From positions 1 through 64,000 of the forward strand of contig SOET01000002.1 of assembly GCA_021646465.1 (NCBI GenBank): DNA of 64,000 nt, read 5' to 3'. Shown here one piece after another: positions 19,115 to 64,000 of this stretch (positions are counted from its first letter, which is position 1; the number at the start of each line of letters is the position of its first letter). Position numbers and translations under genes: made by a program. The DNA is from Candidatus Kuenenia hertensis (lineage in GTDB: Bacteria; Planctomycetota; Brocadiia; Brocadiales; Brocadiaceae). The notes beneath the pieces are model-generated. The model was not told the origin of the DNA. It saw nothing but the letters and a program-made list of their open reading frames with translations, and ran no database searches.

Positions 19115-19133
19115 GGGCGATTAGCTCAATTGG
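19115..19133 (+). other. attL core: copy of the tRNA-Val 5' end
   Basis: The 19 bases GGGCGATTAGCTCAATTGG are identical to nucleotides 1-19 of the intact tRNA-Val at 62980. Beyond base 19 the match ends and phage DNA begins. This is a tRNA fragment and not a working tRNA gene. The left flank, with a good promoter, is host DNA after trkH. Confidence 0.85.
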
Positions 19134-25858: not shown

Positions 25859-26266
25859 TTACTTGATAATCGCATATTTTAAAACAAAGTCTAGTTCCGG
25901 AAATTTATAATCTCCATCTGAATTGTTCCAGCATTCCCGGATACAAATCATTGCTTTGTCTGTGGCAGAATATGCAAGAGATACCACAAAATAATGTGAT
26001 GAATTATCGTATGTTGAAGTGATTGGTAATTGCCTTTCGTATGAGCCGTAACCGCCGCCAATATCTGCAAAGCCGATCACACCTTTTATTTTTGTATCAA
26101 TATTTTTTACGTAAAATATTTGCGAATCAAAACTACCCGCCCCAACTTCCATAGCATCAAATAGTACACTAATATCTTCTTTGTTTTTTATGTGCAACCG
26201 TTCGCCAAACACATTGTTTGTGATAAACAAACAAAGCAATATAATTAATACCCCACACTTTCTCAT
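25859..26266 (-). CDS. Exported paralogue of the tail-tip protein's C-terminal domain
   Basis: From the ATG at 26266, which overlaps the preceding stop (ATGA), the product has about 135 residues. It starts with a clear Sec signal (MRKCGVLIILLCLFITNNVFG). The last ~85 residues align by eye with the end of the 2,094-residue tail-tip protein encoded just upstream; shared stretches include KGVIGF(A/N)xIGGGYG and RQLPI. The two genes thus carry duplicated terminal domains. The second copy is exported or membrane-bound instead of being fused to the tail tip, which is odd for a virion protein. Confidence 0.7.
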   Translation of the reverse strand: MRKCGVLIILLCLFITNNVFGERLHIKNKEDISVLFDAMEVGAGSFDSQIFYVKNIDTKIKGVIGFADIGGGYGSYERQLPITSTYDNSSHYFVVSLAYSATDKAMICIRECWNNSDGDYKFPELDFVLKYAIIK

Positions 26267-32200: not shown

Positions 32201-32547
32201 TGACCGCCATAATAATTCTGCAATTTGCTGCCATTTATTTTGACATATTGAACACCGTTTATCGGCCCCTCACCGCCTGATAAAAGGAAATAAATATCGG
32301 TTTCCTCACCACCTTGCTTGGAACGTTTAAACCAATTAATGATTGCAGGCGCAATTTCCATCTTGCCATATACAGTATTAACAGGATATCCCGGGCGTGT
32401 GATATTTTGCATCATCGACCCAGAATATGTTGGGTCATCCGCCGAACTATTAGGCGTTTTTATCTTCGACCGCATCATATAATTTAATGCGGTCAACAAA
32501 CCCGATATCGCTATCGATATGCCGATTGCAATCCAGGGTATTGGCAT
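26263..32547 (-). CDS. Tail-tip / host-specificity protein (lambda J-like)
   Basis: The 2,094-residue protein is the largest in the window and occupies the place of lambda gpJ, directly after the L-like gene. It starts with a hydrophobic stretch (PWIAIGISIAISGLLTAL) and a tail-tip hub region (VNTVYGKMEIAPAIINWF, FLLSGGEGPINGVQYVKINGSKL). The middle (~1,050-1,750) contains fibronectin-type-III-like units (TTYYARVKAVNTSGLSSGW). The last part is the receptor-facing end. J-type proteins form the central tail spike and choose the host receptor. Its C-terminal ~85 residues recur in the next gene. Start and the preceding stop are directly adjacent. Confidence 0.85.
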   Translation of the reverse strand: MPIPWIAIGISIAISGLLTALNYMMRSKIKTPNSSADDPTYSGSMMQNITRPGYPVNTVYGKMEIAPAIINWFKRSKQGGEETDIYFLLSGGEGPINGVQYVKINGSKLQNYYGGQSDFDIYISHGEQEPIIYKWHLPRKATITAVDINAGTINYTLANAGKTLSAANHAEMGYIYVVGKGMVRYTGNGTNQLTGCRFPEIAEVEVDDVMKQYYAVYRKDGVAQTQIPHFNKNILSTTTLDEIVPGGEYSTVYETENKIHAFFVTLALRGGCYRFDDKDGYLPSNVDVNIQWRKRGEAWNDSFTTVTEVRDSTATDGDIIGSTHTLRLKQNKKYCYLGDNTGAVLKGTLENLQDKIVFGDFNWKKEHYLEFTAKDETGTSTAFRYRIKNIEYEDTGEIEEVAIEGEAYRNGRQYTEYQIVYKIKINFKKQVLPNTDDKAKFPGADQNGISYQITRDKEVADNIVKYSLPEQEAVKLSDFEATYYLPLDEDDFGEPLDYDYYDIRVKKRTEDITDAQKGQNELTLVSIQECTTDRLIHPNEALIGVKARMNERINGSIDQVTAMVEGLLIKDVQDDQSSKIVWEADTTYSLGNIRRPTAANGYAYRVVAVTGDAKSGGAEPTWPKLARARVTDNNVTWEEDVCRWSDNPIDVKADIALNQRYGRGVWLELSQAEETDFYSRLSDDAAYCDNSITENDPITSDPVTRKRFSINYNFGTRDKIVNQTQILSKCVRAYDWWDGVRPMMFIDRYRAPAAMYNNANINKGTIAIETLDDDDKINRMYGQFLNKNKKYIQDQVGRDWNDQGFEIENLNDTELAFYPLTEDWYVHKVMDYLLKYSYYVKHLLMFESLEAALIDPGEIFYYSDQESSTFACQTGRIFAVGTNSIILDRAFTFLAGQTYKALLRQDDGTPVEYTVDLAITGTGAQTLVVFTGAISSISVNSIYSLGKTSGGNEYYRKFICIHKEFSGDTVKLVALTYDINVFAGLYENDPVVEEQGTTAPGLDVPTDVESLDRGSKPPQNVKSLVVKEDPRSPGTLVIGISKPISATWSYANIYAVDELDNKFYIGRTSGEILTQSGFKLGATYTIIAESYTSQGVAAGNAVSVEITLDGTNTLMLPPTVSGMRVLYKPGTETEVAGEDFEIEWDPVSTFGDDSANQSVSMAKQGYDENIRYLVEWYYSEISSSIKLNNKKVNEMVAYSEEVYDPRAKFTLKQNIESVKTIFEKYPTHSSYSAYYGVPQRTVKAKVYTVDAYGKMSTSAKEVILTNPKPQMLDSSGNLLPLNLEALKSGARVEFSHPHQEYDIKYFVRKHFKAAEWIASTIYQRYDIIYDPTTNEIFYCYNTSGTSSTSKPNFALYGGSYGVFPSTGSLINDGTVKWDKLSSTKVFEVAQAYTIKYADGTRVNLSDILVSKSIPSMVGIANTDTEIAGTKYTQDEYVLDTKYYYFFGVIAIDPFGRDTSQFYNYAYGGIKPGSTDDDTEAKIESPGIPNLSGISEPLANSPEIMYDGSTLNRLRMTWKNEDEGENEYTDIDYFVIQFFGIAKPDADLGDFPSTESAIGNAIDNGYVTIDALNYIFTLDEITKDQQSGSKTRAYLSGAISGTTYYARVKAVNTSGLSSGWTTITADTMEAIEGDITGVVMSSLTGETTSPTIITVTELSEYIKIEVDISDAPEDLWGAKFAVKSNAAFTYAANTASGISERNALKTAEIAAKEGKITYYFNGATGNDYYISAMPLDNSKNSAKYNGVASWLDADSNPYQVQGISHESLGTSFKKYKFSGTIAASDYNTVTWTMGILKIKGQSGSPFTINYGTTYNFTGTKVIFWVDSNPTNFSIADYDDFYTDSAYDNALALAWVEANSDTSQKATVIPMSGDDFSITASMISSNAVATSHLQAGSVTVTKISVSSLSAISANFGTATFTGQIRMSDGTDIRILLDGDSNPPRLIITKPGIDAVSDSWTVNDLLFSTIDENDNPLSTFKILDSGIQTVIIPAYSVATGSYNSAGTLIKNVASLGTLEKGVIGFANIGGGYGRYKRQLPIRSGFGNANNFTVSLGYSANDGAIYCESEAWATNNTKFNVSSITFRLKWYLLGDIIT

Positions 32548-33300
32548 TTATGATAGCTCCTGCAAAGAGGTTGTTGGGATACCAGGGTAAAGTCTTGCCC
32601 GCATTTTAGGCTTTAACGCGTTAGTTTGGTTAAAATGTGCTGCACAGCCGTTTTGAGAATACATCTGCTTATCGCATTTGGTAGCGTCTGCGCTTGGATA
32701 ATTAATAGTATCCAATGTTGCGCCTGCTTTACTGTAATATAGCGAAAAAAATCCACATGTGCGTTTTGCTATTTCGTCCGTTCCATCTGCATCAAATTTC
32801 CAACCGCAACGATTTCTATCCCGCGGAAATAACGGAAAATCGTTCCGCTGATCTGAATGATATGTCCTCAGAATAAAGGATAATTGATAAGATTGCCGGT
32901 CATATGCCACTTTTCCTATTCTATATTTCCATTTAGATAAGTAATCTACGCCTAACGTTAATCCCTCAAACGTATCGTATATATACACAATAGAACCTCT
33001 CACATCCTGACTCTCAATATACCCGCCCTCTACATCGTTTATGTTTGAAATGCTTAATTCAGTTTCAGGAAATGAGCCTTCAATATTTTGTTCTCCAAGT
33101 TTCTCCACATGCAAGGGTTTACAGTAGAAGTCCTTTGAATCCCATACATATTTTGTCGTATCGGCTTGTTCTGTTTTTTCAATTTGACAATATCTCTTTG
33201 TGCCAATCGCGGATGGATAGAGTATCTCCACCAGCTTTATCAGCCGTGGCCGTTGTATTTTGAATAATTGCGTTTTAACGTTCTGTGTTAAATATCCCAT
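32548..33300 (-). CDS. Minor tail protein L-like, four-cysteine C-terminal domain
   Basis: The 250-residue protein sits between the M-like and J-like genes, the position of lambda gpL. Four cysteines in the C-terminal part (Cys165, Cys182, Cys209, Cys219; DRNRCGWKF, RTCGFF, TKCDKQ, NGCAAHF) match the cluster-binding pattern of gpL, where four cysteines hold an iron-sulphur centre in the tail tip. The front part contains the SNINDVEGGYIESQDVRGS strand region. It is a tail-tip assembly protein by family and context. Confidence 0.8.
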   Translation of the reverse strand: MGYLTQNVKTQLFKIQRPRLIKLVEILYPSAIGTKRYCQIEKTEQADTTKYVWDSKDFYCKPLHVEKLGEQNIEGSFPETELSISNINDVEGGYIESQDVRGSIVYIYDTFEGLTLGVDYLSKWKYRIGKVAYDRQSYQLSFILRTYHSDQRNDFPLFPRDRNRCGWKFDADGTDEIAKRTCGFFSLYYSKAGATLDTINYPSADATKCDKQMYSQNGCAAHFNQTNALKPKMRARLYPGIPTTSLQELS

Positions 33301-33302
33301 GC

Positions 33303-34028
33303 TTAGATCACTTCTATAAGTTCAACGTTTACAGTATAAAAATTATCACTTCTCCTTATAATCCGAAAAGCATCGGAATTAAATCGCATTGTATAACTGC
33401 CGGATAAATATGCTGCAAACTGGCTTAAATCTACGGTATAAGTAATTGCCCGGCCTGTTACAGTCGTGCTAAAAAAGGTTTTCAATACGCTTAAATCAGA
33501 TTTACGATATTGCAAGTTCAATGTCCTTTGCGGATTCAATCGCCTCGCAGAATATGTCCCACTTACCGCCTCTTCGATATTTACCGTTGCCGACCATCTT
33601 TTGTAATGATCAAGGCTGATCTTTAGCGTATCTTCTGCAAAACGTACAAGAGTTGTAGCGCCGCCAAACAAATAGGAATAATTAATGTTGAAATTTTCAT
33701 ATCTCCCCTTTCGTGCAATATAAAAAGCTATCAATGCATCTACTTCAGTTTGTGTAAGATTTGTATTTGTCCATCGATAACCGGTAATTGCCTTATGATA
33801 TTTTGTCTTGCGCAATTCCCGCATATTGTCGATATCATCGCCAGAGATAATCGATTCATAAGTTATATATTCCTCCACTGGCTGTTCGGGCGCTGGGCAT
33901 GTAGTTTGATAAGATGCCGGTGTCCCTATTTCTTTGTGTAACAATGTATCGGCAAGTTGCACATTGGTATCATAGGCAATTTGCATTTCCAGCGGATACA
34001 CCGGTTTTACACTATATATATAAGACAT
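33303..34028 (-). CDS. Minor tail protein (lambda M-like position)
   Basis: The 241-residue protein overlaps the tape-measure stop by one base (TAATG), indicating coupled translation. It holds two similar beta-rich modules, seen in paired ends such as LDHYKRWSATVNIEEA and IRRSDNFYTVNVELIEV, which resemble the gpM/DUF2460-type tail-tip fold. A role in joining the tape measure and the tail tip is inferred from position. Confidence 0.7.
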   Translation of the reverse strand: MSYIYSVKPVYPLEMQIAYDTNVQLADTLLHKEIGTPASYQTTCPAPEQPVEEYITYESIISGDDIDNMRELRKTKYHKAITGYRWTNTNLTQTEVDALIAFYIARKGRYENFNINYSYLFGGATTLVRFAEDTLKISLDHYKRWSATVNIEEAVSGTYSARRLNPQRTLNLQYRKSDLSVLKTFFSTTVTGRAITYTVDLSQFAAYLSGSYTMRFNSDAFRIIRRSDNFYTVNVELIEVI

Positions 34029-43999: not shown

Positions 44000-45877
44000 C
44001 TAATAAATATCTACCTTACTAACCAGCCGCCGTCTTGGTCGATTCTGCGGCATAGGGATATGATCTTCTACTTCTTTTCGCTTTGATTCGTTATCGTTAG
44101 ATAATTTATCAAGCATCTGACTCACTGTATAGTTAGGATAGTGCCTGGATTGCGCTATATGCAATGCGGCAATATTCAATACTTTAATATCCAGTGCTTC
44201 ATTGCGGTTTCTTGTTTTAACCCATTCATGAAAACGGAATCCTTTTCTAATCTTAGAAATTTTCTTTTCTGCCGTAAGTTGCTTGAAATACTCATCATCG
44301 AATTCAAAAGGGAAATGAATATATCCGGCTCCTTGCTCAGATATCTTTAGCCGTCCAAAAATCAGGTTTTTTGCAGTATCTGTACCGACATGATAAAGAT
44401 ATATACCGGGTATGTTTTTGCTGGGCTTGCTTATAATAGGCAATCCATGTGTATTAGATCCCTTTGTTGCCCAGATGTTACGCGCCTGCCTTGGCCTCAC
44501 AAACTCATATACATGCTTTGTGTTATCGCCGCTGTCTATCGCTATGGAAGATATCTGCCAGGTATAACCCGTGGCATGGCGATAGTTTTTTGATAAAAAC
44601 ACATCAAGATGCCTCCAAACTTCTTGCTTTGTAACATCGCCATATATAACTTTGTATTCAATACCCCATGATTCCTCAGCCAATCCCCAGCCTTCAACGC
44701 CTACCTCTATACGATCATCCTGTATATCAACGCCAGCGGTAAGGATTACAACCTGTTCAGGGACTTCCGGTCCGTATTTTTCGCGCCGGTTAAAAAGAGC
44801 GTTGTCGCTTAACGATTCACCTTCATCTTCCCACGTTTCAGCAAGCCTTGTGTTTGTCCATTTTTTCAGGAGCGTAGAATCATTATTTTTTTTCGCCTTC
44901 AGAAATTCTCTAACAATATCATTCCATGAAAGCCAACCTATCGGACTATACAAAGATGACAAATGATATCCACGATACGGATGCCCAGGGTTGCCTGGTA
45001 TCCACTCCCCATTTTCAAGCATATATGTTTTGTAATATTCATCGATCAATGACCCGCAATTGAAACAACTATATTTTGCATCATTTAAAAGTTTGTAATC
45101 TTTTTTGTCATATTCAAATATAATCCCACTCCACATTAAAACTTGCTTTTCATGGCAATGCGGACATGGAACGTAATACTTCCGCTGGTCTGAATCTTCA
45201 TATTCTTGCTCAATTCTACTAATACCCCTGATTGTTGGGGTGCTTTCAATGTATATCTTTCTGTTGCCATATGCGTCCGTTCTATTTTTTGCAAGGCCGC
45301 AAGGATCTCCCTGATTATCAACGTCTGACGGATATCCATCGATATCGGACAAATGCAAATAGCGTATAGACACATTGCGAAAACTTGACTCACTGTTTGC
45401 GCCAGAGACTACCAACATGCCCCCAGGAAATGTCTTAATTAGTGTCGTATTGCTTGAGTTTCTTGACTTAGACTCACCTATTCTTGTTTTCAACTCTTCG
45501 GTTTCCTCTATTGTTGGAGTAATTTTCTGCTTAGAATGCTTTTCAGCAAGGTCTAGTGTTGGCAATACAAGCATAAACGGAGACGGGCAAAGGTGCGCAA
45601 TATATCCAAACCAATTGCAACCTGCTTCGGTGCCGCCTATTTGAGTTGCCTTTACAAATTTTACCTGCTCTATCGGACTTCTGGCGCTGAGGGAATCCAT
45701 AATCTCCCTAAGATACGGCGTTCTGGATGTTCGCCATTTTCCCGGCTCCGCTGATGACCTCCTCGGAAGTGTTCGGAAAGAATCCGCCCATTCCGATACC
45801 GTAAGACGCGGGGCTGGTCTTATCCCTAAACTAAACCCAGTTTTATATACCTCATACGCTTTTTCTTTTGTTGTCAT
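44000..45877 (-). CDS. terL: Terminase large subunit (lambda gpA family)
   Basis: The 625-residue packaging motor has an ATPase part with a deviant Walker A (FVKATQIGGTEAG, about residues 74-86) and the family signatures LPRRSSAEPGKWRTSRTPYLREIMD and RYLHLSDIDGYPSD. A four-cysteine zinc site follows (CPHCH...CFNCG), then a nuclease part (LTAGVDIQDDRIEV...). gpA-type enzymes cut concatemers at cos sites and drive DNA into the head. Its start overlaps the small-subunit gene by 26 nt. A cos-type packaging strategy is inferred from the family. Confidence 0.93.
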   Translation of the reverse strand: MTTKEKAYEVYKTGFSLGIRPAPRLTVSEWADSFRTLPRRSSAEPGKWRTSRTPYLREIMDSLSARSPIEQVKFVKATQIGGTEAGCNWFGYIAHLCPSPFMLVLPTLDLAEKHSKQKITPTIEETEELKTRIGESKSRNSSNTTLIKTFPGGMLVVSGANSESSFRNVSIRYLHLSDIDGYPSDVDNQGDPCGLAKNRTDAYGNRKIYIESTPTIRGISRIEQEYEDSDQRKYYVPCPHCHEKQVLMWSGIIFEYDKKDYKLLNDAKYSCFNCGSLIDEYYKTYMLENGEWIPGNPGHPYRGYHLSSLYSPIGWLSWNDIVREFLKAKKNNDSTLLKKWTNTRLAETWEDEGESLSDNALFNRREKYGPEVPEQVVILTAGVDIQDDRIEVGVEGWGLAEESWGIEYKVIYGDVTKQEVWRHLDVFLSKNYRHATGYTWQISSIAIDSGDNTKHVYEFVRPRQARNIWATKGSNTHGLPIISKPSKNIPGIYLYHVGTDTAKNLIFGRLKISEQGAGYIHFPFEFDDEYFKQLTAEKKISKIRKGFRFHEWVKTRNRNEALDIKVLNIAALHIAQSRHYPNYTVSQMLDKLSNDNESKRKEVEDHIPMPQNRPRRRLVSKVDIY

Positions 45878-46322
45878 TGTATTTGCCGCTTAATTTTTCC
45901 AATGCGAGGTCGATTTCTTTCTCAAGCATTTCGTGTATCTTAATTTTATCCGTCTCAGCCGCCAGTAATGCCGCCAACCTATCTGGTATATTTAGCAGCG
46001 CATCCTGTACTTGCCTTGCGATTTCAAACGCTGCGCTCTCAACATCCTTTGCGGGCACAAGAATCTTTGTAAGCTCTAAAACCTCAAATTCTGCTTTTCT
46101 CGCCCGCGCCTTTACTAATCGCAAATTTTCCGCATCAATTCCCGATTGCGCTTCCGAAAACTCGCTTTTGATTATGTCAACGATTGCAGTAGCAGCTTTT
46201 ACCACATCATGGCAATTTTGTTTTACAGGCTTCGGCAACAATCCTTTTTTTATAAGCTCACCGATATATTGAACGGAGCAACCGTAAATACCTGCCAAAT
46301 CTTTTGTTGTACAAGTTGTCAT
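45852..46322 (-). CDS. terS: Terminase small subunit (Nu1-like)
   Basis: The 156-residue protein has an N-terminal winged-helix DNA-binding motif (TTKDLAGIYGCSVQYIGELIKKGLLPK) followed by a helical region (ENLRLVKARARKAEFEVLELTKILVP), matching the lambda Nu1 family. It recognises the packaging site and brings in the large subunit, encoded by the overlapping next gene. A strong terminator hairpin lies directly upstream (46334-46406), so the late structural operon probably starts here. Confidence 0.88.
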   Translation of the reverse strand: MTTCTTKDLAGIYGCSVQYIGELIKKGLLPKPVKQNCHDVVKAATAIVDIIKSEFSEAQSGIDAENLRLVKARARKAEFEVLELTKILVPAKDVESAAFEIARQVQDALLNIPDRLAALLAAETDKIKIHEMLEKEIDLALEKLSGKYNDNKRKSV

Positions 46323-46430: not shown

Positions 46431-46565
46431 TTATAGTTTTATGCTTTCGTTTTTCTCACAATGTACAATTTTGCCATTTTCAAATTTAATAGTGAAACTT
46501 CCATAAAATTTTTTTTCCATTAAGTGTTTTAATATCTCGTTAAGCTTTTTTAGTATTTCTATCAT
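46431..46565 (-). CDS. 44-residue DUF2292/YezD-like protein
   Basis: A 45-codon frame begins at the ATG at 46565, overlapping the stop of the upstream gene (ATGA), and ends at 46431. The product (MIEILKKLNEILKHL..., then FYGSFTIKFENGKIVHCEKNESIKL) fits the small YezD/DUF2292 family pattern GSVTIxxQDGxIVQIExxEKIRL. That family has no firmly known function; members occur beside sulphur-metabolism genes and in mobile DNA. It is the last gene of the lysis-like cassette. Confidence 0.65.
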   Translation of the reverse strand: MIEILKKLNEILKHLMEKKFYGSFTIKFENGKIVHCEKNESIKL

Positions 46566-46894
46566 CCAAGATATTTCCTTATCAACGTTGCCAGTACAGC
46601 ATTGATTGCTGTAATACTAATACCAAATATTATCATATCTCTTTTCCTGCTTGCCCGTATCCCTCTTATTGCTTCGTGATATTCTTCTCTTTTTTCAGTC
46701 GTGTCAAATCTCTTGTGGCCTTCGCAATGCTCAAGAGCGTCCCTGAGTATTTCCGGCCTGACATTATTGTGAAAATCTCTTGATGCTTCTAATAAGGCTA
46801 TTCTGATAGTATTATTCATATTCTTTTCAAAACCTGACATTTTCTCATCTATATACCTGAACAAACTATCGTAATCACGCCTATCATCTGTCAT
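46562..46894 (-). CDS. Small membrane protein of the lysis-like cassette, possible holin
   Basis: The 110-residue protein is charged and helical with one C-terminal hydrophobic segment (MIIFGISITAINAVLATLI) and a basic tail. This is the layout of XhlA-type and other single-span lysis proteins. It overlaps the lipase gene by 11 nt. A role in membrane permeabilisation or targeting of the lipase is inferred from position and topology. Confidence 0.55.
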   Translation of the reverse strand: MTDDRRDYDSLFRYIDEKMSGFEKNMNNTIRIALLEASRDFHNNVRPEILRDALEHCEGHKRFDTTEKREEYHEAIRGIRASRKRDMIIFGISITAINAVLATLIRKYLG

Positions 46895-47672
46895 ATACTA
46901 TTCTCTCCAGGTGTTTGCAATAACTTTCGATTGAATGCCTGTTAAATAATTTGCGTTTCATGAAAACATTTCTCAGGAAATAAAACAATCTATCTAAAAA
47001 CGGAACATCTGAAATTATCTTTCTGCCTTTTAGAAAACAAAGGTCTCCTGTGTGTTTATACTCAGAATTAAAAGGGTAGGCCGGTATCGGGTCACCTGCA
47101 TTGACAAAACGACATCCATACAATTCTGTTGTCCCATCGTTGTGTTTTGGCGACCCAAACGTATATGTTGTTATTGTATGCCTTGTTTTGGCATATATTT
47201 CATCCGCAGCGACTTTGGCAATCGCCCCGCCAAGGCTATGTCCTACAATGTATATCCTGTTGAAAATTGTCGGAAAATACTCTGGTATATTTTCCAAAAC
47301 AGCATCTTTGACGTAATTAAATGCCCTGTAAAATCCTCTATGTCTCTTTCCATCTATTGTCTCGTAAAATCTGCTGTCAAGGTCTGCAATTAAATCTCTG
47401 TAATCGTCAAGTTCTGTCCCACGAAACACAAGAAAGTAATTGTCTTCTCTTTTTGCAAGATATGCCTGTGTGCCATTATTGTTGAAGATGTTCACTAAAT
47501 CTATTTTAATCTCTTTGAGTCTATCATTCAGGACTTTTAAATCCATATTTGTCTTTTCAAAAGGCAAATAAGCCAACCCTGAAAGCTTTGCCATAAGGTA
47601 TGCTTTTTCAGTAAATGACAAGCTATCAAAATTGCTGTTAAATAATAGTATATCTCTCTCGGTGAATTTCAT
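46884..47672 (-). CDS. Class 3 lipase-type alpha/beta hydrolase in the lysis region
   Basis: The 262-residue protein has the class 3 lipase signature: nucleophile elbow VGHSLGG with Ser146, an aspartate in FVNAGDPIPAYP (about Asp194), a histidine near the end (RHSIESY, about His246), and FRGTELDDYRDLIADLD with the oxyanion-hole region. Such enzymes cleave ester bonds of glycerolipids. It has no signal peptide. It lies between the terminase and replication modules with two holin-like membrane proteins nearby. Use of a lipase in phage exit is inferred, in analogy to lipid-cleaving lysis enzymes of other phages. Confidence 0.85.
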   Translation of the reverse strand: MKFTERDILLFNSNFDSLSFTEKAYLMAKLSGLAYLPFEKTNMDLKVLNDRLKEIKIDLVNIFNNNGTQAYLAKREDNYFLVFRGTELDDYRDLIADLDSRFYETIDGKRHRGFYRAFNYVKDAVLENIPEYFPTIFNRIYIVGHSLGGAIAKVAADEIYAKTRHTITTYTFGSPKHNDGTTELYGCRFVNAGDPIPAYPFNSEYKHTGDLCFLKGRKIISDVPFLDRLFYFLRNVFMKRKLFNRHSIESYCKHLERIVYDR

Positions 47673-48049
47673 GTTTTTGGACTAATTCCATAATTCCCAT
47701 TATGCCTGTCATGTAATTCACTGATTTTCGACTTATTCCAGTTCGTCACACGGCTGTAGTAGCCCACAATCCTTGTCACCCCCCACACCTTCACCGTTAC
47801 GCCGGTGGCAAGCGCCTCAGCGATATCGTCAACCTCCTGCGCCATAATCGCCGCCAGGCTGATCTGGTCGGCCTCCTTTGTCTGGTGGTTTACCACCTTT
47901 ATGTAGTGCGTCTCCGGCGTTTCGCCCGGTATATCGCCATCTATCTCAAGGTGTCCGTAACGGTTGATTGCCGATTCAAAAGCCACAAGCTTCCTCTCCA
48001 GCGCATCTCTCACATCCAACTGTTTTTCGTCCAACACTGCATTTTCCAT
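47669..48049 (-). CDS. Stand-alone glycyl-radical-type domain (NrdD C-terminus-like)
   Basis: From the ATG at 48049, with the strong ribosome site AAGGAGGAA, the product has 126 residues. The end (VWGVTRIVGYYSRVTNWNKSKISELHDR) resembles the C-terminus of anaerobic ribonucleotide reductase NrdD, where the RxxGY glycine (here about Gly96) carries the radical. The rest of NrdD is absent. Similar stand-alone domains (YfiD/GrcA for pyruvate formate-lyase) replace damaged radical domains. Repair of host NrdD is therefore one possibility; a loss of catalytic meaning is another. It overlaps the lipase start by 4 nt. Confidence 0.55.
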   Translation of the reverse strand: MENAVLDEKQLDVRDALERKLVAFESAINRYGHLEIDGDIPGETPETHYIKVVNHQTKEADQISLAAIMAQEVDDIAEALATGVTVKVWGVTRIVGYYSRVTNWNKSKISELHDRHNGNYGISPKT

Positions 48050-48075
48050 ATTCTTTCCTCCTTGATGAAAACGAC

Positions 48076-48336
48076 TCACGGTGTTGCCGCACCCTTTGCT
48101 AATTCCGATAAATTCAACAAAACTTTTTCTAACTCACCGCCGGTTCCTTTAGAACTTTCCAACGTAATCGCTTTTTTATCCTGCCCTATATCCGCCGTAA
48201 AACCCTGGATTTCCATCCAACCAATACGGGAATATCTAAATTTTTCACCATTTGCAGTTTCATATTTTACGCTGGCACATCCGCAGAAACAAAACGCCAT
48301 AATCACACAAAGCGCCATAAACGGCAGATATCTCAT
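48076..48336 (-). CDS. Small lipoprotein, spanin-like position
   Basis: The 86-residue protein has a signal peptide ending in the lipobox FCGC (cysteine about residue 20) and so is a membrane lipoprotein. The mature part is about 65 residues and mixed polar. It overlaps the upstream gene by 4 nt. In a lysis cassette such a lipoprotein could be an outer-membrane spanin, but the family is not recognised. Confidence 0.6.
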   Translation of the reverse strand: MRYLPFMALCVIMAFCFCGCASVKYETANGEKFRYSRIGWMEIQGFTADIGQDKKAITLESSKGTGGELEKVLLNLSELAKGAATP

Positions 48337-48500
48337 CTTTTCCCCCCTATGAAAGAAGTTATATCTCTCAATGTACCAACAATTCTTGTCAGCTTTTCAT
48401 CTGCATCATGCGGTTTTAAATCCCTGATTATTTCAAGATCATCAGCTAAAGATTTCAAATTTTCCTGTATTTCAATTTTTGTTAAACAACAATTTACCAT
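48333..48500 (-). CDS. 55-residue helical protein of the lysis-like cassette
   Basis: A 56-codon frame starts at the ATG at 48500, directly against the stop of the holin-like gene, and ends in a 4-nt overlap with the lipoprotein start. The product begins MVNCCLTKIEIQENLKSLADD and is acidic and helical. No family is known. The tight overlaps on both sides argue that it is real although it is short. Confidence 0.6.
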   Translation of the reverse strand: MVNCCLTKIEIQENLKSLADDLEIIRDLKPHDADEKLTRIVGTLRDITSFIGGKR

Positions 48501-48725
48501 TTACGGTCCTTTCTTTTTATCCAGCCAGAATTGCGCGCCAATTCCCGAACAGGTTATAAATCCTATTGCATAAAAAGCCTCATGTACAATCTCACGTGTT
48601 TCCAATCTCATTGCTTCGGGCAATGTCAAATAATATAACGTTACTACAGTAATAGCCGCCATGCCCGCGATAGAAATCAAAAGCTTTCTGGATGTTACTT
48701 TTTCGGTAATCTGCACTTTATCCAT
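48501..48725 (-). CDS. Two-span small membrane protein, probable holin
   Basis: From the ATG at 48725 the protein has 74 residues with two hydrophobic segments (LLISIAGMAAITVVTLYYL and AFYAIGFITCSGIGAQFWL) and a short charged tail DKKKGP. This is the topology of class II/III holins. It is followed without gap by the next gene. It would form membrane lesions that start lysis. A TTG two codons upstream is an alternative start. Confidence 0.6.
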   Translation of the reverse strand: MDKVQITEKVTSRKLLISIAGMAAITVVTLYYLTLPEAMRLETREIVHEAFYAIGFITCSGIGAQFWLDKKKGP

Positions 48726-48897
48726 GGCCAAGACCAGTCAGTGTACACCTATCGCAACCATAGAAACTACTAATGCTCCGGTACATAGTTGTTTTACAGT
48801 CAACACAATGTGCCGATATTCTTTCTTTTAGTATTTCAAGCATTTTTTTGAGATTCTGATTTTCAGTTAATAAATTTATTTTTTCTATTGAATTCAT
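48718..48897 (-). CDS. 59-residue zinc-ribbon-like protein
   Basis: The frame from the ATG at 48897 to 48718 encodes a short coiled helix (INLLTENQNLKKMLEILKE) followed by four cysteines in two pairs (HCVDC and GCDRC), a likely zinc knuckle. It overlaps the holin-like start by 8 nt. No clear ribosome site is present. Its role is unknown. The 190 nt upstream (48898-49086) hold no recognised feature and may contain a promoter. Confidence 0.5.
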   Translation of the reverse strand: MNSIEKINLLTENQNLKKMLEILKERISAHCVDCKTTMYRSISSFYGCDRCTLTGLGHG

Positions 48898-49086: not shown

Positions 49087-49698
49087 TCACCTTTTGTTCA
49101 CCATACCTTTTGATAAGAAATTAAGCTCATGATTCAATCGCTTGGTTAAGTTCTGGTCGATGGTATCGCGTATCTTCTTAGCAACTTTTTTGTTTGCATA
49201 AAGCTGTGTGATAGACGGACCAAACAAAGAGCGCCTTGCCTCAGCATCCTTGAGATAAAAGGCTTTATCTTTGCGCCTGCTTGTGCGATGTGTCTTGGGC
49301 AGTTTAGGGTCGCGCAGGAACACCCATTGTTCTGATTCACCTTTTTTCCAAGGTGCGATGAAAGAATGGGGTATCAGTTTGCGCCCCCCTGTTTTTTTAA
49401 TTCTAACCGTGGCGCCTTTATTTGTTTTCCGTGCTCCGTATTTCATCAGTCCCAGCCTACCTGAGCGCACAAAGATTTTATATTGCAGACGAGAGGCTTT
49501 GGCACGTATGGTCTTGCTTGCCTTTGAAATATCGCCTGCCTTGACGTTGTATTGCTCGCGTATCTGTTTACTTGCGGCAGTGCGTGCCTGGTCGCCTACG
49601 CGATTAAGTGATCGCACAATAGCTTTGCGTGTTAAGGCTTGTAGCTTTTTATTTTTGCGTAAAGCCTGTGAGAAATCTACATTTATGACTACGCTCAT
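49087..49698 (-). CDS. Minor tail protein Z-like
   Basis: The 203-residue, very basic protein matches the pattern of the prophage minor tail protein Z family: SLNRVGDQARTAASKQIREQYNVKAGDI, then a glycine/lysine-rich middle and the IAPWKKGESEQWVFLRD segment. gpZ is needed for correct tail ends in lambda. Here the gene is isolated, about 11 kb away from the other tail genes and upstream of the lysis-like cassette. Confidence 0.75.
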   Translation of the reverse strand: MSVVINVDFSQALRKNKKLQALTRKAIVRSLNRVGDQARTAASKQIREQYNVKAGDISKASKTIRAKASRLQYKIFVRSGRLGLMKYGARKTNKGATVRIKKTGGRKLIPHSFIAPWKKGESEQWVFLRDPKLPKTHRTSRRKDKAFYLKDAEARRSLFGPSITQLYANKKVAKKIRDTIDQNLTKRLNHELNFLSKGMVNKR

Positions 49699-53464: not shown

Positions 53465-53897
53465 TGCAATGCTTCCTAAATTTTTCCAGCAACCTCAATG
53501 TAAGCGTCATCCCGTAGTTCCTGTCATGGGCAAAAAACACATATGTTTTGTAGCGAATCGACCACATCAGCAGCGAATTAATCGCCGATTTTGGATTTAA
53601 CTTGGAATATGGCGGGGGTTGCAGGAAGTTTTTCAAATCCGATTCAATGACAATCGCCGCGTACTCGTAGTTTTTAAACCTTTCAAGCTCATTGATAAAC
53701 CGTTTCCTGCCTTGCCCGATAGTGCCATAAGCGTCGGCAAGCGTCTTGCGTTCGATGGTGATCCTTGTTTCATATCCTTCTATGCTGTAGTCGCCTGCGT
53801 CAAGCTTCCTGGTGACTGTCTTTACGTCAGGAAATTCATAAGGGAGCGATTCCCTGGTGTCTATTATGATAGTGAATTCATCCTTTTTAAATTCCAT
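53448..53897 (-). CDS. ERCC4-domain (XPF-like) nuclease
   Basis: From the ATG at 53897 the 149-residue protein is a single ERCC4 nuclease domain: IIIDTRE near residue 13, the middle LDAGDYSIEG, and the catalytic ITIERKTLAD (ERKxxxD). Phages use such enzymes for recombination or Holliday-junction and flap processing. The start overlaps the end of the serine recombinase gene by 11 nt; the longer frame up to 53957 would lie wholly inside that gene and is not preferred. Confidence 0.85.
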   Translation of the reverse strand: MEFKKDEFTIIIDTRESLPYEFPDVKTVTRKLDAGDYSIEGYETRITIERKTLADAYGTIGQGRKRFINELERFKNYEYAAIVIESDLKNFLQPPPYSKLNPKSAINSLLMWSIRYKTYVFFAHDRNYGMTLTLRLLEKFRKHCNESKK

Positions 53898-54510
53898 TAG
53901 ATTCGTTAGGCTTATTTTCTGCCTTATTTTTCTTCTTTCTTCCACCTCTTGCACCATAAAACCCTGCCGAATAACAAGTAAGAATTTTCATAATATCCTC
54001 TGCTAATTCTTCTTCATATTTCTTTTCTTTCGTCTCCACTACTTCAACAGTTATTTCCAAGTTTTTAAAGATTGCATCAAGATATTCATAACCAAACCGA
54101 GCAAGCCTGTCTTTGTATTCAATCAACACTCGTTCAACTTTGCATTCAAAGCACATCTTGATTAACTTGTGTATGCCGTTCCGCTTTTCGTTTATTCCAC
54201 TGGCAATCTCGTCAATCATCATATACTTGTAGCCTTTAGCTTCAGCGTGTTTTCTTAACCTGTCTTTTTGTCGTTCAAGGTTTTCTTTCTGCTTTGCAGT
54301 CGAACATCTGGCATAAATCACAGTCAACTTTTCTTGCTTCTCTTTCTCAACTCCCATATAAGCGTCTAAATCATCTTGACGGAAACGCCTGTGATTACCA
54401 TTAGTCTTGAAAGATTTCACTTTTCCATTGTTGGCAAGCGTCTTGAGCGTGTTAATTGACACACCAAGATAATCGCTTGCTTCTGTGATTTTATAGATGC
54501 GATTAGTCAT
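53887..54510 (-). CDS. IS607-type serine recombinase (MerR-like HTH + resolvase)
   Basis: From the ATG at 54510 the 207-residue protein has an N-terminal MerR-type helix-turn-helix (KITEASDYLGVSINTLKTLANNGKVKSF). A small serine-recombinase catalytic domain follows: YARCSTAKQ with nucleophile about Ser70, and KDRLARFG with the conserved arginines. This is the TnpA layout of IS607-family elements. No TnpB gene is nearby. The ATG overlaps the preceding NUMOD3 gene by 8 nt. The C-terminus is very basic (RGGRKKKNKAENK). It may be a mobile passenger or a domesticated phage recombinase. Confidence 0.85.
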   Translation of the reverse strand: MTNRIYKITEASDYLGVSINTLKTLANNGKVKSFKTNGNHRRFRQDDLDAYMGVEKEKQEKLTVIYARCSTAKQKENLERQKDRLRKHAEAKGYKYMMIDEIASGINEKRNGIHKLIKMCFECKVERVLIEYKDRLARFGYEYLDAIFKNLEITVEVVETKEKKYEEELAEDIMKILTCYSAGFYGARGGRKKKNKAENKPNESNGI

Positions 54511-55102
54511 AGTCTTTAATCCTGATAAATCTGCAACCAAGTTCTTCAGTAAGAATAGACTCCCGCTCAATATCTTTTTGTGATGTTTTTGGTTTCTCGT
54601 CAACTTCTATTGCAATTTTCATTTCTGGAATATACCCATCTATAAAATACCCAAGACATTCATATTGCCTCAAAATCACAACTCCCATTTCAATCTCAAC
54701 CGCATCTAAAATGGATTTCTCGTTTCTACCTATTCTTGGACAAATAATATCACATACATTCTTTGCGTATTCAAAAGCGGCTTCTCTCATTTTTGCTTTT
54801 GTTTCCTCTGTATGTGGTGGTCTTTTCTTGCCTTTCCAATAGTTAGTTGGGTTTTGAAATTTGGCTTGTCTCATTTTTTCTCTTGTTTCGGCAGAAAAGG
54901 GCTTTCGCTTTTTACCCTTTCTTATTTTACTTAGTTTGTTCTTTGTCTCTTCACTAACCGTTCTGCCTTTTGCCCAAGTATTCACACCCTTCATAGATTC
55001 ACGAAGTTTTGCTTTATGTTCTTCTGATAGTTTGCGACCTTTCATAGATTCGCTTATCTTTTTTCGTTCTTCTTCTGATATTGTTTTAGCCACAATATTC
55101 AC
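54503..55102 (-). CDS. NUMOD3-repeat nuclease with PD-(D/E)XK/Vsr-like C-terminal domain
   Basis: The 199-residue protein carries several NUMOD3 DNA-binding repeats in its first 115 residues (units such as SEEHKAKLRESMKG, SEETKNKLSKIRKG, TEETKAKMREAA). A nuclease-like domain follows (YFIDGYIPEMKIAIEVDEKPK, then ERESILTEELGCRFIRI), as in Vsr/DUF559-type homing endonucleases. NUMOD3 repeats are typical of free-standing or intron-encoded homing nucleases. It overlaps the serine recombinase start, so the two act as a pair in one transcript. A selfish insertion into the phage is likely. Confidence 0.8.
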   Translation of the reverse strand: MNIVAKTISEEERKKISESMKGRKLSEEHKAKLRESMKGVNTWAKGRTVSEETKNKLSKIRKGKKRKPFSAETREKMRQAKFQNPTNYWKGKKRPPHTEETKAKMREAAFEYAKNVCDIICPRIGRNEKSILDAVEIEMGVVILRQYECLGYFIDGYIPEMKIAIEVDEKPKTSQKDIERESILTEELGCRFIRIKDYD

Positions 55103-56051: not shown

Positions 56052-57242
56052 TTAATTCAAAAACCTTTCTAAATTCGTATACCTTCGTGCCTGCTGATTC
56101 CGCGCAATGATCTTCGGAATCTCCGACCGCTGGCCAACAAGTATCACAATCTTTTTACCCCTGCTAATTGCCGTATAAAGCAGATTCCGCTGCATGATCA
56201 TCGTACCGAAACACCTGTGAACCGGCATAATCACAACCGGCCACTCACTGCCTTGCGATTTGTGGATGGTAATTGCATAGGCAGGGGCAAGATTGTTTTC
56301 ATATAACGGCAGCTTTACCTCTCCGGTGTTTTCAATATCCACCGTGATCGTTTGTTCTTTTACCCCGATATCCTTCACAATGCCCATATCCCCGTTTACG
56401 ATTTCGTTTTGATAATCATTTTTACACTGAATCACCTTTGTACCCACACGAAACCTGCCTTTTTCAATCGCAGGATTCTTGTTGAGCCTTTCTTCAATTG
56501 CCTTATTCAGGCTCATGCATGATAGCTCGGATTTCTCGTTAAGAGGGCTAAGCACCTGGATATCTTTAAACGGATCAAGGCCGTATGTACCCGGCAACCG
56601 TTTGGATATTAATTCAAGGATAATATCCCTTATGCCGGTCTCGCTATTTCCATCAATAAAATAGAAATCCTTCGACTGCTCGTTATTAATCTCAATATTT
56701 TTCCCGTTCTTAATACGGTGGCAATTGGTAATGATAAACCCCGGGTCCTGCCTTTTGATCTTCTCCAGTTCAAAGCAGGCAATCTTCTTTGAGTTAATAA
56801 TATCCTTCAGCACATTCCCCGCCCCAACCGCTGGCAACTGATAGTGATCCCCCACAGCCAGCACCCTCGTCCCCGGCTTCACAGCCCCAAGCAGACATGA
56901 CATAAGCGGTATATCCACCATACTTGTCTCATCAATAGCAATAAAATCCATTTCCAGCGGGTTTTCCCTGTTATAGTTAAAACAAAACCCACCGCCAGGC
57001 ATTGGCATAGGCGAAAGCAGCTTGTGTATAGTCTGCGCAGCGCTTCCCGTAACCTCGGCAAGCCGTTTGGCAGCCTTGCCCGTAGGGGCAACAAGCGCCG
57101 TCCTGAGACCCTTTTGCTTATACTGCTCAATAATAGTCTTTACCACGGTTGTCTTGCCTGTACCAGGAGTGCCGGTAATGACGCATACCGGACTCTTTTT
57201 TGCAAGATCAATCGCTTGTTCCTGGTCTTCGTGTAATTTCAT
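56052..57242 (-). CDS. RecD2-like helicase, ATPase half
   Basis: The 396-residue protein corresponds to the motor part of RecD2: Walker A GTPGTGKTT (residues 24-32), VAPTGKAAKRL, DETSM Walker B (about 104-108), GDHYQLPAVGAGNVL, and the C-terminal UvrD-type motifs YAITIHKSQGSEW and YTAISRGKK. It should be a 5'-3' superfamily 1B DNA helicase. The N-terminal HhH part of normal RecD2 is missing here and is encoded by a separate gene at 57861-58736, with two genes between. The start overlaps the zinc-ribbon gene by 4 nt. Confidence 0.85.
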   Translation of the reverse strand: MKLHEDQEQAIDLAKKSPVCVITGTPGTGKTTVVKTIIEQYKQKGLRTALVAPTGKAAKRLAEVTGSAAQTIHKLLSPMPMPGGGFCFNYNRENPLEMDFIAIDETSMVDIPLMSCLLGAVKPGTRVLAVGDHYQLPAVGAGNVLKDIINSKKIACFELEKIKRQDPGFIITNCHRIKNGKNIEINNEQSKDFYFIDGNSETGIRDIILELISKRLPGTYGLDPFKDIQVLSPLNEKSELSCMSLNKAIEERLNKNPAIEKGRFRVGTKVIQCKNDYQNEIVNGDMGIVKDIGVKEQTITVDIENTGEVKLPLYENNLAPAYAITIHKSQGSEWPVVIMPVHRCFGTMIMQRNLLYTAISRGKKIVILVGQRSEIPKIIARNQQARRYTNLERFLN

Positions 57243-57385
57243 TTGTTTTCTTTTGCCTGAAACCTAACATCGCAATTATCACATTCCCAAAGGTTTTCAT
57301 CTTTACAATTTTGTCTTATACTGCCTCCGCATTTATCACATTGATAGTGTTCATATTGATCTTTCGGATCATCTTCTGGTAGCAT
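57239..57385 (-). CDS. 48-residue zinc-ribbon protein between the RecD2 halves
   Basis: The frame from ATG 57385 to 57239 encodes an acidic start (MLPEDDPKDQYEHY) and then two CxxC pairs (CDKC, CDNC), a clear zinc ribbon. It overlaps the helicase start by 4 nt (ATGA) and begins 3 nt after the nuclease stop. It is thus tightly coupled to both. No function is known. Confidence 0.65.
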   Translation of the reverse strand: MLPEDDPKDQYEHYQCDKCGGSIRQNCKDENLWECDNCDVRFQAKENK

Positions 57386-57387
57386 CT

Positions 57388-57867
57388 TTATCTAATCTCC
57401 TCTAATAAATTTTTATAAGCCTTACTGGAAGAATATACACTTTCCTTTAAATTCCAGATTCGCATTGAACATAATTTCCCCAAATGAATTTTGTCATTAT
57501 CAGTAATCTTATAATCACTTTTTATATCCGCTTTTCTGAGTAATTTAACTTCTCCTTTCATACCAATCAAATATATGCCTGCATCTGGTTGGATATGAGA
57601 CGTGTATGGTTCCAGATATTCCGGTATCGCAAAGTATAATTCCCTTATCTTGTTATTCTTGTGAAAATGCCCTTTCTTTTTGTCGGCAATTAAATCGTTT
57701 TTAGCAACCTTGATTTCAAACTCAACCATGTAGCCAGATGGTCGAATCAGGAGCAGATCAATTTCATAGCGGAATCCCATCCCCCATGACACATTGGGGA
57801 CTAACATATTCACTCTGGTATTGAAGTGCCTTGCCAGAAACAATTCAACCTGCATTGTACTCAGCAT
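57388..57867 (-). CDS. MmcB/PD-(D/E)XK-type nuclease-like protein
   Basis: The 159-residue protein contains RYEIDLLLIRPSGYMVEFEIKVAKNDLIADKKK, with the D...ExK arrangement of PD-(D/E)XK nucleases and the look of the MmcB DNA-repair family. Such proteins are found with helicases in repair systems. Its ATG lies inside the end of the RecD2 N-terminal gene (7-nt overlap), so it is inserted exactly at the split of that helicase. Confidence 0.65.
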   Translation of the reverse strand: MLSTMQVELFLARHFNTRVNMLVPNVSWGMGFRYEIDLLLIRPSGYMVEFEIKVAKNDLIADKKKGHFHKNNKIRELYFAIPEYLEPYTSHIQPDAGIYLIGMKGEVKLLRKADIKSDYKITDNDKIHLGKLCSMRIWNLKESVYSSSKAYKNLLEEIR

Positions 57868-58736
57868 GCAGCAAGCTCCTTCAGTTTATCCGCAACCAAC
57901 CTTTCGTTTTCGTACATGTTTGGTAAATATGCGTAATTTTCGTACATAATTATTTCACTGTTTACTTCCATATTCGTTATTTCTTTTTCAATTGAATCAG
58001 TTGAGAGACCAAGCAAAGAGGCTGATTGTTCGATAAGCGCCTCAATAGGCAAACAGGTATGTCCGCTTACGCCTGCTTCTTTTAATATATGCCGTATGCC
58101 CGCCTTAATTCTCGCCTCTCCATCCTTCGCATACCCGACATTAATAGCAATCCTGTCGGCTGTGAGAAACCCTACACCCTCAACGTTTCCGATAAGCGCA
58201 TAAGGGTTTTCCTTCGTCCTTACCACAGCATCCTGACCGTAGAGACTAATAATATTCGCAACAACCCGCCGGTTAACCTGCACGCCCTGAAAGATGGTCT
58301 TCAGTTGAAGCTGCAATTCCTCATTCACCTGGTTTTGCAAAAGCATTGCGGAAATTTCCCTTGCCCGCGCTTCTGTTATACCGGAAATTTCCCTTGCAAC
58401 CCTTTCCGGTTCATTTTTACACACCTCAAGCGTATCTTCCCCATACGCATCAGTCAGCTTCTTTGCAATCTGAAACCCGATCCATTTCGCGTTATCAATC
58501 AAATATGCATGTATTGCCGATATCTCTTTCGGGTATTTGATTGTGTAGGATTCAAACACAAAAGGCTTGCCGTAGAGCGGATGCCTTCCGCCCCATTTCC
58601 CTTCAAAGGTATATTCCAGTCCCAACTGTGGACCCGGCATATTTCCCTTTACGGATACTCCGCTTGCAGTCTTCGCAATCAGGTAGCCGTTCTTTTGGTA
58701 TTTGATCGATGCTATCGTGTCAGTTAGTGTTTCCAT
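57861..58736 (-). CDS. RecD2-like protein, N-terminal helix-hairpin-helix half
   Basis: The 291-residue protein matches the N-terminal region of RecD2: an OB-like start (VKGNMPGPQLGLEYTFEGKW), the segment KYPKEISAIHAYLIDNAKWIGFQIAKKL, tandem HhH elements and GNVEGVGFLTADRIA. It ends with YENERLVADKLKELAAC, where full-length RecD2 continues into the ATPase domain. The ATPase part is encoded separately at 56052-57242. The two products may assemble into one helicase, or the HhH half may have a role of its own. Confidence 0.8.
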   Translation of the reverse strand: METLTDTIASIKYQKNGYLIAKTASGVSVKGNMPGPQLGLEYTFEGKWGGRHPLYGKPFVFESYTIKYPKEISAIHAYLIDNAKWIGFQIAKKLTDAYGEDTLEVCKNEPERVAREISGITEARAREISAMLLQNQVNEELQLQLKTIFQGVQVNRRVVANIISLYGQDAVVRTKENPYALIGNVEGVGFLTADRIAINVGYAKDGEARIKAGIRHILKEAGVSGHTCLPIEALIEQSASLLGLSTDSIEKEITNMEVNSEIIMYENYAYLPNMYENERLVADKLKELAAC

Positions 58737-62705: not shown

Positions 62706-63002
62706 ATGTATCTTAAAAAAAATACACTAGGCATGAAAATCAGACAACTCAGAAAGGAACTGGGATTAAATCAGGATGAATTTGCCCGCAAACTTAGTGA
62801 TTATGGGATAGAGATAACGCATTCTGGTATTAGTAGGATTGAAAGCGGAGACCATTTCCCTCATATAGAAACCCTACTTGCCATATGCATGTTATGCGGT
62901 TTAACTCCAAACGAGATGCTGGATTACGATTGTGAAAAAATACAGCACAAACAGGCATTATACAATTTAGGGGATCACGGGGCGATTAGCTCAATTGGCT
63001 AG
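62706..63002 (+). CDS. XRE-family phage regulator, truncated by integration at attR
   Basis: From the ATG at 62706, with GGAGG 8 nt before it, the integrated form has 98 residues. Residues ~10-65 form an XRE helix-turn-helix (KIRQLRKELGLNQDEFARKL, then SGISRIESG). The gene runs into the attachment core, and its last codons (GAISSIG) and the TAG stop are tRNA-Val nucleotides. In the circular phage the same frame would continue through attP for 32 further codons (19135-19233), giving 130 residues ending 5 nt before int. It is the likely repressor. A TTG at 62679 is a weaker start (107 residues). Confidence 0.85.
   Translation: MYLKKNTLGMKIRQLRKELGLNQDEFARKLSDYGIEITHSGISRIESGDHFPHIETLLAICMLCGLTPNEMLDYDCEKIQHKQALYNLGDHGAISSIG
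62980..62998 (+). other. attR core inside tRNA-Val and the XRE regulator gene
   Basis: This is the second copy of GGGCGATTAGCTCAATTGG. It forms at the same time nucleotides 1-19 of the tRNA and codons of the XRE regulator end. DNA to the left is phage, DNA to the right is host. Confidence 0.85.
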
Positions 63003-63056
63003 AGCACTTGCCTTACAAGCAAGGGGTCATAGGTTCGAGTCCTATATCGCCCACCA
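62980..63056 (+). tRNA. tRNA-Val (anticodon UAC)
   Basis: The 77-nt gene folds completely: acceptor GGGCGAT/ATCGCCC, D arm GCTC...GAGC, anticodon arm CTTGC-CTTACAA-GCAAG with anticodon TAC, T arm ATAGG-TTCGAGT-CCTAT, discriminator A and an encoded CCA. It is intact although the prophage is integrated in its 5' part, because the phage supplies the same 19 bases. Its native promoter was left at 19075-19103. It now lies downstream of the phage regulator gene, whose last 23 nt overlap it. A -10-like TACAAT (62961-62966) is the only promoter element seen nearby. Confidence 0.97.
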
Positions 63057-63099
63057 TTCTAATTCCTGTAAATTGAAAGACTTATAAATTGTTGCAATC

Positions 63100-64000
63100 T
63101 CATGATACATGTCTGTTTTCCCTTACTGTAGTCAAATTGTAGTCAACTTTTTCTAAAACCTCAATTCCTTCCCTTAAACTTTCCGGGCAATGGTGTGCAT
63201 AACGTTGCGTCATGGTAATATTCATGTGGCCTAACAGCTTCGATATTTTGTAAATATCAATACCCCTTTGTGCCAAACGTGTCGCAAAGGTATGCCTCAA
63301 GTCGTGGAAATGAAAATCCTGAATCTCAGCCTTTTCCAAGGCAGTATTAAAAGCCCTTCTCAGATTGTGGCGGTCAATCTTGTTTATTGTGCTACTCAGA
63401 AAAACGAGATCGCTTTTCAGGTTCCTAACCTTTGCCTTTTCCTGTAGAATTTCAAAGGCAATCTGCGTTAAAGGGATTGTTCTTGGTTTTCCGTTCTTTG
63501 TCTCTTGAATTATAATAGTCCAGTTGAAAAGGTTTACGCGCCCCCATTGAAGGGAAAGCAGTTCGTCTTGCCGTAAACCTGTGTGCAAGGCAAAGAGGAT
63601 AATTTCTTTCAGCCATTGCGGCGAATTATCAAGCAGCCTTTTTTCCTCGTCATAGGTCAACCAGCGATCCCGCCCACGATTCTCTTTTTCCCGTGATACT
63701 TTTAAGACGGGATTCTCTTTAACCCATTCCCATTCCTTACTCGCAAGACTGAAGGCCTTTGAAAGCATTGACAAACTCCTGTTGATGGAAGGCGCCCCAC
63801 CGCCTTTTTCCTTTCTTGCTTGTTTGTATTCGTTAATCTTTCCAGCGGTTATTTTAGATAGCGCCAACTCGCCAAAAAAATCAGAAAGATGCTTTAACGA
63901 TACCTTGTAAAGAGACCTCATATTCCCGGATACCTTCGGAGCATGTTCTTTCATAAACTTTTCCATCATGTCCTTGAAGGTCTTGTTTTGACCAACCGGT
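63100..64000 (-). CDS. Second tyrosine recombinase/integrase, 5' end beyond the window
   Basis: The frame is open to the right edge, so the start is outside; the visible part is about 300 residues. It has a core-binding domain (YKVSLKHLSDFFGELALSKITAGKINEYKQ) and the catalytic set: Arg in TGLRQDELL, HDLRHTFATRL, LGHM and the tyrosine in TQRYAHH. It points at the 3' end of tRNA-Val, 43 nt away, outside the phage attachment repeat. That is the typical place of an integrase of a different element inserted at the tRNA 3' end. Confidence 0.9.
   Translation of the reverse strand, partial: PVGQNKTFKDMMEKFMKEHAPKVSGNMRSLYKVSLKHLSDFFGELALSKITAGKINEYKQARKEKGGGAPSINRSLSMLSKAFSLASKEWEWVKENPVLKVSREKENRGRDRWLTYDEEKRLLDNSPQWLKEIILFALHTGLRQDELLSLQWGRVNLFNWTIIIQETKNGKPRTIPLTQIAFEILQEKAKVRNLKSDLVFLSSTINKIDRHNLRRAFNTALEKAEIQDFHFHDLRHTFATRLAQRGIDIYKISKLLGHMNITMTQRYAHHCPESLREGIEVLEKVDYNLTTVRENRHVS

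Follow-up and report, generated by a model that had tools for sequence, protein, structure and literature searches.

In lambda-like phages, the genes for host-cell lysis lie upstream of the terminase genes. The lysis module of mycobacteriophages also contains LysB, a cutinase-like lipolytic alpha/beta hydrolase that acts with the endolysin on mycolyl esters; according to the available text of PMC6116114, deletion of LysB leads to a lysis defect, yet the protein is not essential in the laboratory. Glycyl-radical enzymes are cut by oxygen at the radical glycine. The available text of PMC8683613 gives only two validated spare parts, both for pyruvate formate-lyase, namely E. coli YfiD and phage T4 Y06I, and its authors allow that spare parts for other glycyl-radical enzymes may exist. 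Here, we describe a prophage in a 64,000-nucleotide stretch of DNA from Candidatus Kuenenia hertensis (the window). On the minus strand, at 46562-48897, this prophage carries a block of seven genes, two of which encode a class 3 lipase and, judging by sequence, a stand-alone glycyl-radical domain of the anaerobic ribonucleotide reductase NrdD.

The block is preceded by a neck gene and followed by the gene for the terminase small subunit (TerS), which we take to be the lambda-like lysis position. In the order of transcription, it encodes a 59-amino-acid (aa) open reading frame (ORF) at 48718-48897, a 76-aa small membrane protein that is the holin candidate (48501-48731), a 55-aa ORF (48333-48500), an 86-aa probable lipoprotein that is an o-spanin candidate (48076-48336), the 126-aa radical-domain protein (47669-48049), the 262-aa lipase (46884-47672), and a 110-aa protein whose gene overlaps the lipase stop (46562-46894). 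TerS and the terminase large subunit (TerL) come next. Adjacent genes of the seven overlap by up to 14 bp or lie up to 26 bp apart; the lipase gene is flanked by overlaps of 4 bp and 11 bp, and 239 bp separate the last block gene from TerS. No frame in the block is broken. This arrangement is best explained as a single late operon directly upstream of TerS. The block resembles the lambda-like lysis cassette in its position and in having a small membrane gene and a probable lipoprotein. It differs from that cassette in that no endolysin, holin or spanin family is recognised in it and in that it includes a lipase and a radical-domain gene.

A predicted stand-alone radical domain of the NrdD type

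The gene at 47669-48049 was overlooked in an earlier, sequence-only reading of this DNA, and it is the most unusual gene of the block and more novel than its other content. Judged from its sequence, it is a stand-alone glycyl-radical domain of NrdD. Its product matches the final residues of NrdD models, both for PF13597 (E 8.7e-5) and for TIGR02487 (1.5e-4, model positions 553-579 of 581), although both matches are below cut-off. The radical-domain matches in Pfam and NCBIfam are to NrdD only, and no radical domain of the pyruvate formate-lyase type was found there. The alignment shows the radical-loop motif TRIVGYYSRV.NWNKSK, in which the glycine of IVGYYS is the predicted radical site. The C-terminus of the host NrdD contains two CxxC pairs (CNDC...CGYC) followed by TRIVGYFSRINNWNKSK; in the 126-aa phage protein, the radical loop TRIVGYYSRVTNWNKSK is present and the zinc cysteines of NrdD are absent. 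We moved the start of this gene from the listed GTG at 48079 to the ATG at 48049. Because this ATG lies behind AAGGAGG and lines up with a start that does not vary among the host homologues, the GTG is probably the wrong start. The predicted structure of the protein is poor at the C-terminus, and it matched no solved structure at E 0.001.

Besides its full-length NrdD, the host encodes a paralogue of 131 aa that is 56% identical to the 126-aa protein. Within the host family, 31 of 33 genomes, with the host's own counted, have a small radical-domain ORF, and the remaining two have an NrdD match only. Of 119 sampled genomes from the phylum, 14 have a match at E 1e-10, in several cases only through NrdD. 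A search of phage records with the 126-aa protein found no match, and a search of IMG/VR did, yielding 12 loci. All seven of the loci that we inspected carry small ORFs (122-190 aa), which by eye lie in head, neck or pre-terminase regions. At L219 and L220, a lipoprotein-like gene, a small ORF and a membrane-anchored gene lie, in this order, between the radical-domain gene and the terminase, an arrangement that closely resembles that of the window. Extra copies in three other host-family genomes lie in contexts that look phage-like by eye; in G017 the copy precedes a TerS-like gene, and in G003 it follows a membrane-anchored gene. The gene for the stand-alone NrdD radical domain thus recurs among viruses. 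In a tree of 26 rows, the window copy is placed among the host copies on a long branch, and this placement is unsure.

The extra copy in G007 (L237, G007:C3:1655000-1665000) lies in a prophage-like region and adjoins genes that by eye are ThyX-like and MazG-like, neighbours that point to deoxynucleotide supply.

The window protein resembles YfiD and Y06I, the GrcA proteins, in being a stand-alone glycyl-radical domain protein of approximately 14 kDa that occurs in host and phage alike (PMC8683613, available text), but its radical domain is of the NrdD type and not of the pyruvate formate-lyase type. Given this GrcA-like size and domain logic and the NrdD radical loop, we infer that the 126-aa protein serves NrdD. 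It may be a spare part that the phage carries for the class III ribonucleotide reductase, in which case the 14-kDa protein would take a glycyl radical from the host's NrdG-type activase and restore an NrdD whose radical loop oxygen has cut; anammox bacteria would keep a copy of their own, and viruses of anaerobes would have taken up such genes repeatedly. We propose this tentatively, at slightly below an even chance. The protein would then have no part in lysis and would most likely replace or supplement the damaged radical domain of the host NrdD, such that the supply of deoxynucleotides is kept. The gene for the full host NrdD adjoins genes that by eye are NrdR-like and radical-SAM activase-like. 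Against the necessity of a spare part, the host also has a reductase of the class I/II type (PF02867). We found no description of an NrdD spare part in the available text of the literature on glycyl-radical spare parts, GrcA and viral class III reductases, including PMC8683613, PMC12288474 and PMC3653736.

The lipase and its possible role in lysis

The sequence-only reading had described the block as a lysis-like cassette containing a class 3 lipase with a complete triad, and this assignment is borne out. The product of 46884-47672 matches Pfam Lipase_3 (PF01764) with an E of 4e-17 and 62.8 bits, well above the curated cut-off of 22 bits, and it matches an esterase/lipase PHROG at 4.9e-18. Ser146, Asp194 and His246 do not vary across an alignment of 12 sequences, namely the window protein itself and 11 relatives from viruses. 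The AlphaFold2 model has a pLDDT of 87.2 and resembles solved structures of fungal lipases and of a feruloyl esterase at a TM of approximately 0.6. The protein thus has the fold, the GHSLG motif and the triad of the class 3 lipases of the Rhizomucor miehei type, but differs from them in looking intracellular, with no signal peptide seen, and in being encoded within a phage late operon. Its gene is single-copy in the host genome. As a lipolytic alpha/beta hydrolase in a putative lysis module, it is comparable to LysB (PMC6116114, available text); it differs from LysB in that its match to Cutinase, the LysB-like family, is below cut-off (E 0.051) and in that the prophage has no recognised endolysin with which it could act.

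Two holin-like proteins and a lipoprotein had also been named in the block, and these labels hold in part. The 76-aa protein has one segment above the hydropathy threshold and a second that is visible by eye, and the 110-aa protein has one membrane segment, at its C-terminus, which would make it tail-anchored. The holin label describes topology only, and neither protein matches a holin family in Pfam, PHROGs or NCBIfam. The 86-aa protein has a hydrophobic N-terminus and a lipobox that is seen by eye, but a regular expression did not flag this lipobox. A spanin pair joins an outer-membrane lipoprotein to a partner anchored in the inner membrane; here, the candidate partner at 46562-46894 is anchored at the C-terminus and not at the N-terminus. 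Neither viral contigs nor phage records yielded a relative of the holin candidate, the lipoprotein or the 110-aa protein, and the lipoprotein has none in the genomes of relatives. Two matches to the holin candidate in those genomes were discounted, given identities of 28-30% and their location, one in a 273-aa frame and one in a stretch with five internal stops. The 59-aa ORF is zinc-ribbon-like by eye, with weak HypA-like and DmmA-like matches below cut-off, and the 55-aa ORF has no significant match in Pfam or PHROGs.

No muramidase, amidase or peptidase had been recognised in the prophage, and at the profile level we reach the same result. The profile search of the small genes for peptidoglycan hydrolases that had been suggested as a check was run, and Pfam found none in 166 prophage ORFs (40 proteins scanned singly and the 126 remaining ORFs of 19000-63100 scanned as a set, for which all 25 matching families were viewed). 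PHROGs, which covered part of these ORFs, found none in 20 of the 40 single proteins and none among the 25 of 51 families listed for the 126-ORF set. A divergent wall hydrolase could have been overlooked by such scans. One PHROG match, of 33303-34028 to a glycoside hydrolase (E 0.0016), covers the same approximately 45 residues as a DUF2460 tail match and was not counted. As hidden gpK-like peptidases, we considered and rejected the small tail gene at 25859-26293 and the gene at 32548-33300, which is gpL-like by eye; neither has a Pfam or NCBIfam match.

A related prophage, with 50% TerL identity, lies in genome G055, which belongs to the same taxonomic order. A lipase match is absent from this genome, and none of 40 scanned ORFs of the prophage matches a peptidoglycan hydrolase (all 14 families viewed; the set left aside TerL, portal, protease, capsid and a few others). 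With neither a lipase nor a recognisable endolysin in G055, a missing endolysin annotation is therefore no pointer to lysis driven by lipid cleavage, and the more likely reason why the endolysin goes unrecognised is that profiles cover the phages of this host group poorly.

Scanned as a single protein, the lipase gave no relatives, either in IMG/VR or among the named genomes, and an alignment-based scan of IMG/VR found many. It matched 264 viral-contig stretches, 235 of which encode lipase relatives; the best 80 were kept, and the lipase ORF was located in 77 of these, forming 40 clusters with full flanks for 30 of the representatives. Using hidden Markov models (HMMs) for three families, GH108, GH19 and Amidase_2, that were seeded from these loci, we observed a protein of one of the families within 4 kb of the lipase in 10 of the 40 clusters. 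Pfam scans of 275 neighbouring proteins gave one further Hydrolase_2, among the matches listed. A lipoprotein, by a simple pattern, lies within 3 kb in 11 of the 40 clusters, and small membrane proteins in many. At L123, the order by eye is endolysin, lipase, small membrane gene, TerS and TerL. As a control, no hydrolase match was found in 33 TerL loci hand-picked from 80, but this control is biased because lipase loci had supplied the seeds of the three HMMs. In an internal control, 10 of 11 hydrolase matches lie within 4 kb, a range that holds 62% of the bases, which gives a p of only 0.04. In some of the viruses that carry it, the lipase thus keeps company with lysis genes, next to an endolysin and not in place of one, and with a recognised endolysin near the viral relatives in 10 of 40 clusters it looks accessory.

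Outside the viral contigs, weak lipase relatives (27-38% identity) occur in seven further genomes from the host's family and order, or 8 of 59 counting the host's own. The chromosomal class 3 lipases at L112, L113, L115 and L117, from the host family or order, by eye lie near lipoproteins, small membrane proteins and a DUF2235-like protein, and two of them lie near phosphoesterases. A further lipase relative, L120 (MT836410.1), which is labelled 'Bacteriophage sp.' in the database, by eye looks like a bacterial vgrG secretion locus and not like a phage.

The most likely role of the lipase is that of an accessory lysis enzyme, although we would put its probability a little short of one half. 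The holin candidate would permeabilise the inner membrane, and the lipase, which is presumably cytoplasmic given that no signal peptide is visible, would then escape and weaken the membrane lipids together with the lipoprotein and the tail-anchored protein, in a role perhaps comparable to that of LysB or the spanins. The wall would be cut by a phage or host enzyme outside the reach of present profiles. A role in lysis is plausible because, in other viruses, relatives of the lipase have endolysins, small membrane proteins and lipoproteins nearby. Several observations weigh against it. In Pfam, PHROGs, NCBIfam, viral contigs and phage records, no recognised lysis relative was found for any of the block's small genes; L009, a close relative with 65% TerL identity, has no such block before TerS; and in G055 the neck and TerS genes are adjacent, with nothing in between. 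Moreover, 30 of the 40 clusters have none of the three searched hydrolase families within 4 kb (10 representatives being without full flanks), which is also the outcome expected from an endolysin family that was not searched.

The sequence-only reading had suggested that release may depend on lipid cleavage in place of wall cleavage if the host is an anammox bacterium. The host is indeed one, since the HZS_alpha family of hydrazine synthase is present in its genome and in none of 14 control genomes. That the lipase replaces the endolysin, with lipid cleavage after holin action sufficing for release from the anammox cell, is possible but quite improbable. The lipase is co-operonic with the holin candidate, the block has no other enzyme large enough to be an endolysin, and no wall hydrolase was recognised in the 166 ORFs, but profile scans miss divergent endolysins, the viral relatives sit beside endolysins, and G055 has neither gene. 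In addition, the anammox bacterium Kuenenia stuttgartiensis contains peptidoglycan, and the sacculi obtained from it by peptidoglycan isolation are lysozyme-sensitive (PMC4432595, available text); thus, a wall-cutting step is expected, and the suggestion of release by lipid cleavage instead is not supported. Less improbable, though still unlikely, is that the lipase is cargo that serves host lipid remodelling, phage exclusion or action against rivals and came to its place in the late block by chance acquisition. The settings of the chromosomal relatives and of the vgrG-like locus would fit such a role, and the neighbouring radical-domain gene is itself metabolic; on the other side stand the many viral lipase relatives near lysis genes and the lysis position of the operon. 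Least probable is a decaying prophage that has lost its endolysin gene. Its tail module has no recognised gpK (NlpC/P60) gene and its RecD2-like helicase is split across two ORFs, but both attachment sites are preserved, the genes for the repressor, integrase, terminase, portal, protease, capsid, tape measure and tail all have open, intact frames, and the same is true of the block.

The prophage, its neighbours and its host

The prophage spans approximately 19115-62998. A 19-bp attachment core at 19115-19133 (plus strand) is repeated at 62980-62998 (plus strand), where it forms the 5' end of the tRNA-Val gene at 62980-63056. In the sister genome G002, the left flank continues directly into an intact tRNA, and this empty site therefore sets the ends of the prophage. 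The tyrosine integrase gene (19239-20318, plus strand) lies beside the left attachment site. It is adjoined, in the same orientation, by a gene for an exported PEGA-domain protein (20350-21072; PEGA match assigned to this ORF by eye), which is a candidate lysogenic-conversion gene.

On the minus strand, the gene directly before the block encodes a minor tail Z or neck protein (49087-49698; PF06763, 9.7e-7; phrog_27, 2.9e-26). TerS directly follows the block (45852-46322; phrog_57, 1.7e-25), and TerL, of the gpA family, has GpA_ATPase and GpA_nuclease matches (44000-45877). The tail module at 26263-34028 contains gpM-like and gpL-like genes, named partly by eye, and a gpJ-like gene for a protein of 2094 aa. 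The two ORFs of the RecD2-like helicase, at 56052-58736, have a 159-aa NERD-like ORF in between, and at 53887-55102 a gene for a MerR-HTH and resolvase protein overlaps a NUMOD3 endonuclease-like gene.

A second integrative element, of approximately 15.6 kb, lies on the opposite side of the same tRNA-Val, from 63057-64000 onward to G000:C25:78686 (L213). It has its own integrase gene (63100-63969), and the 3' end of the tRNA is repeated at C25:78687-78751. It contains genes that by eye are primase-like and sigma-like, structural phage genes were not seen in it, and it could be a phage satellite.

Judged from literature titles, the exit of phages from anammox cells, with their ladderane membranes and peptidoglycan wall, appears to have been little studied, and the block at 46562-48897 supplies concrete candidate genes for this step. 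The radical-domain protein is of wider interest: conserved across the host family and with both prophage and environmental viral copies, it makes the spare-part idea directly testable for ribonucleotide reductase.

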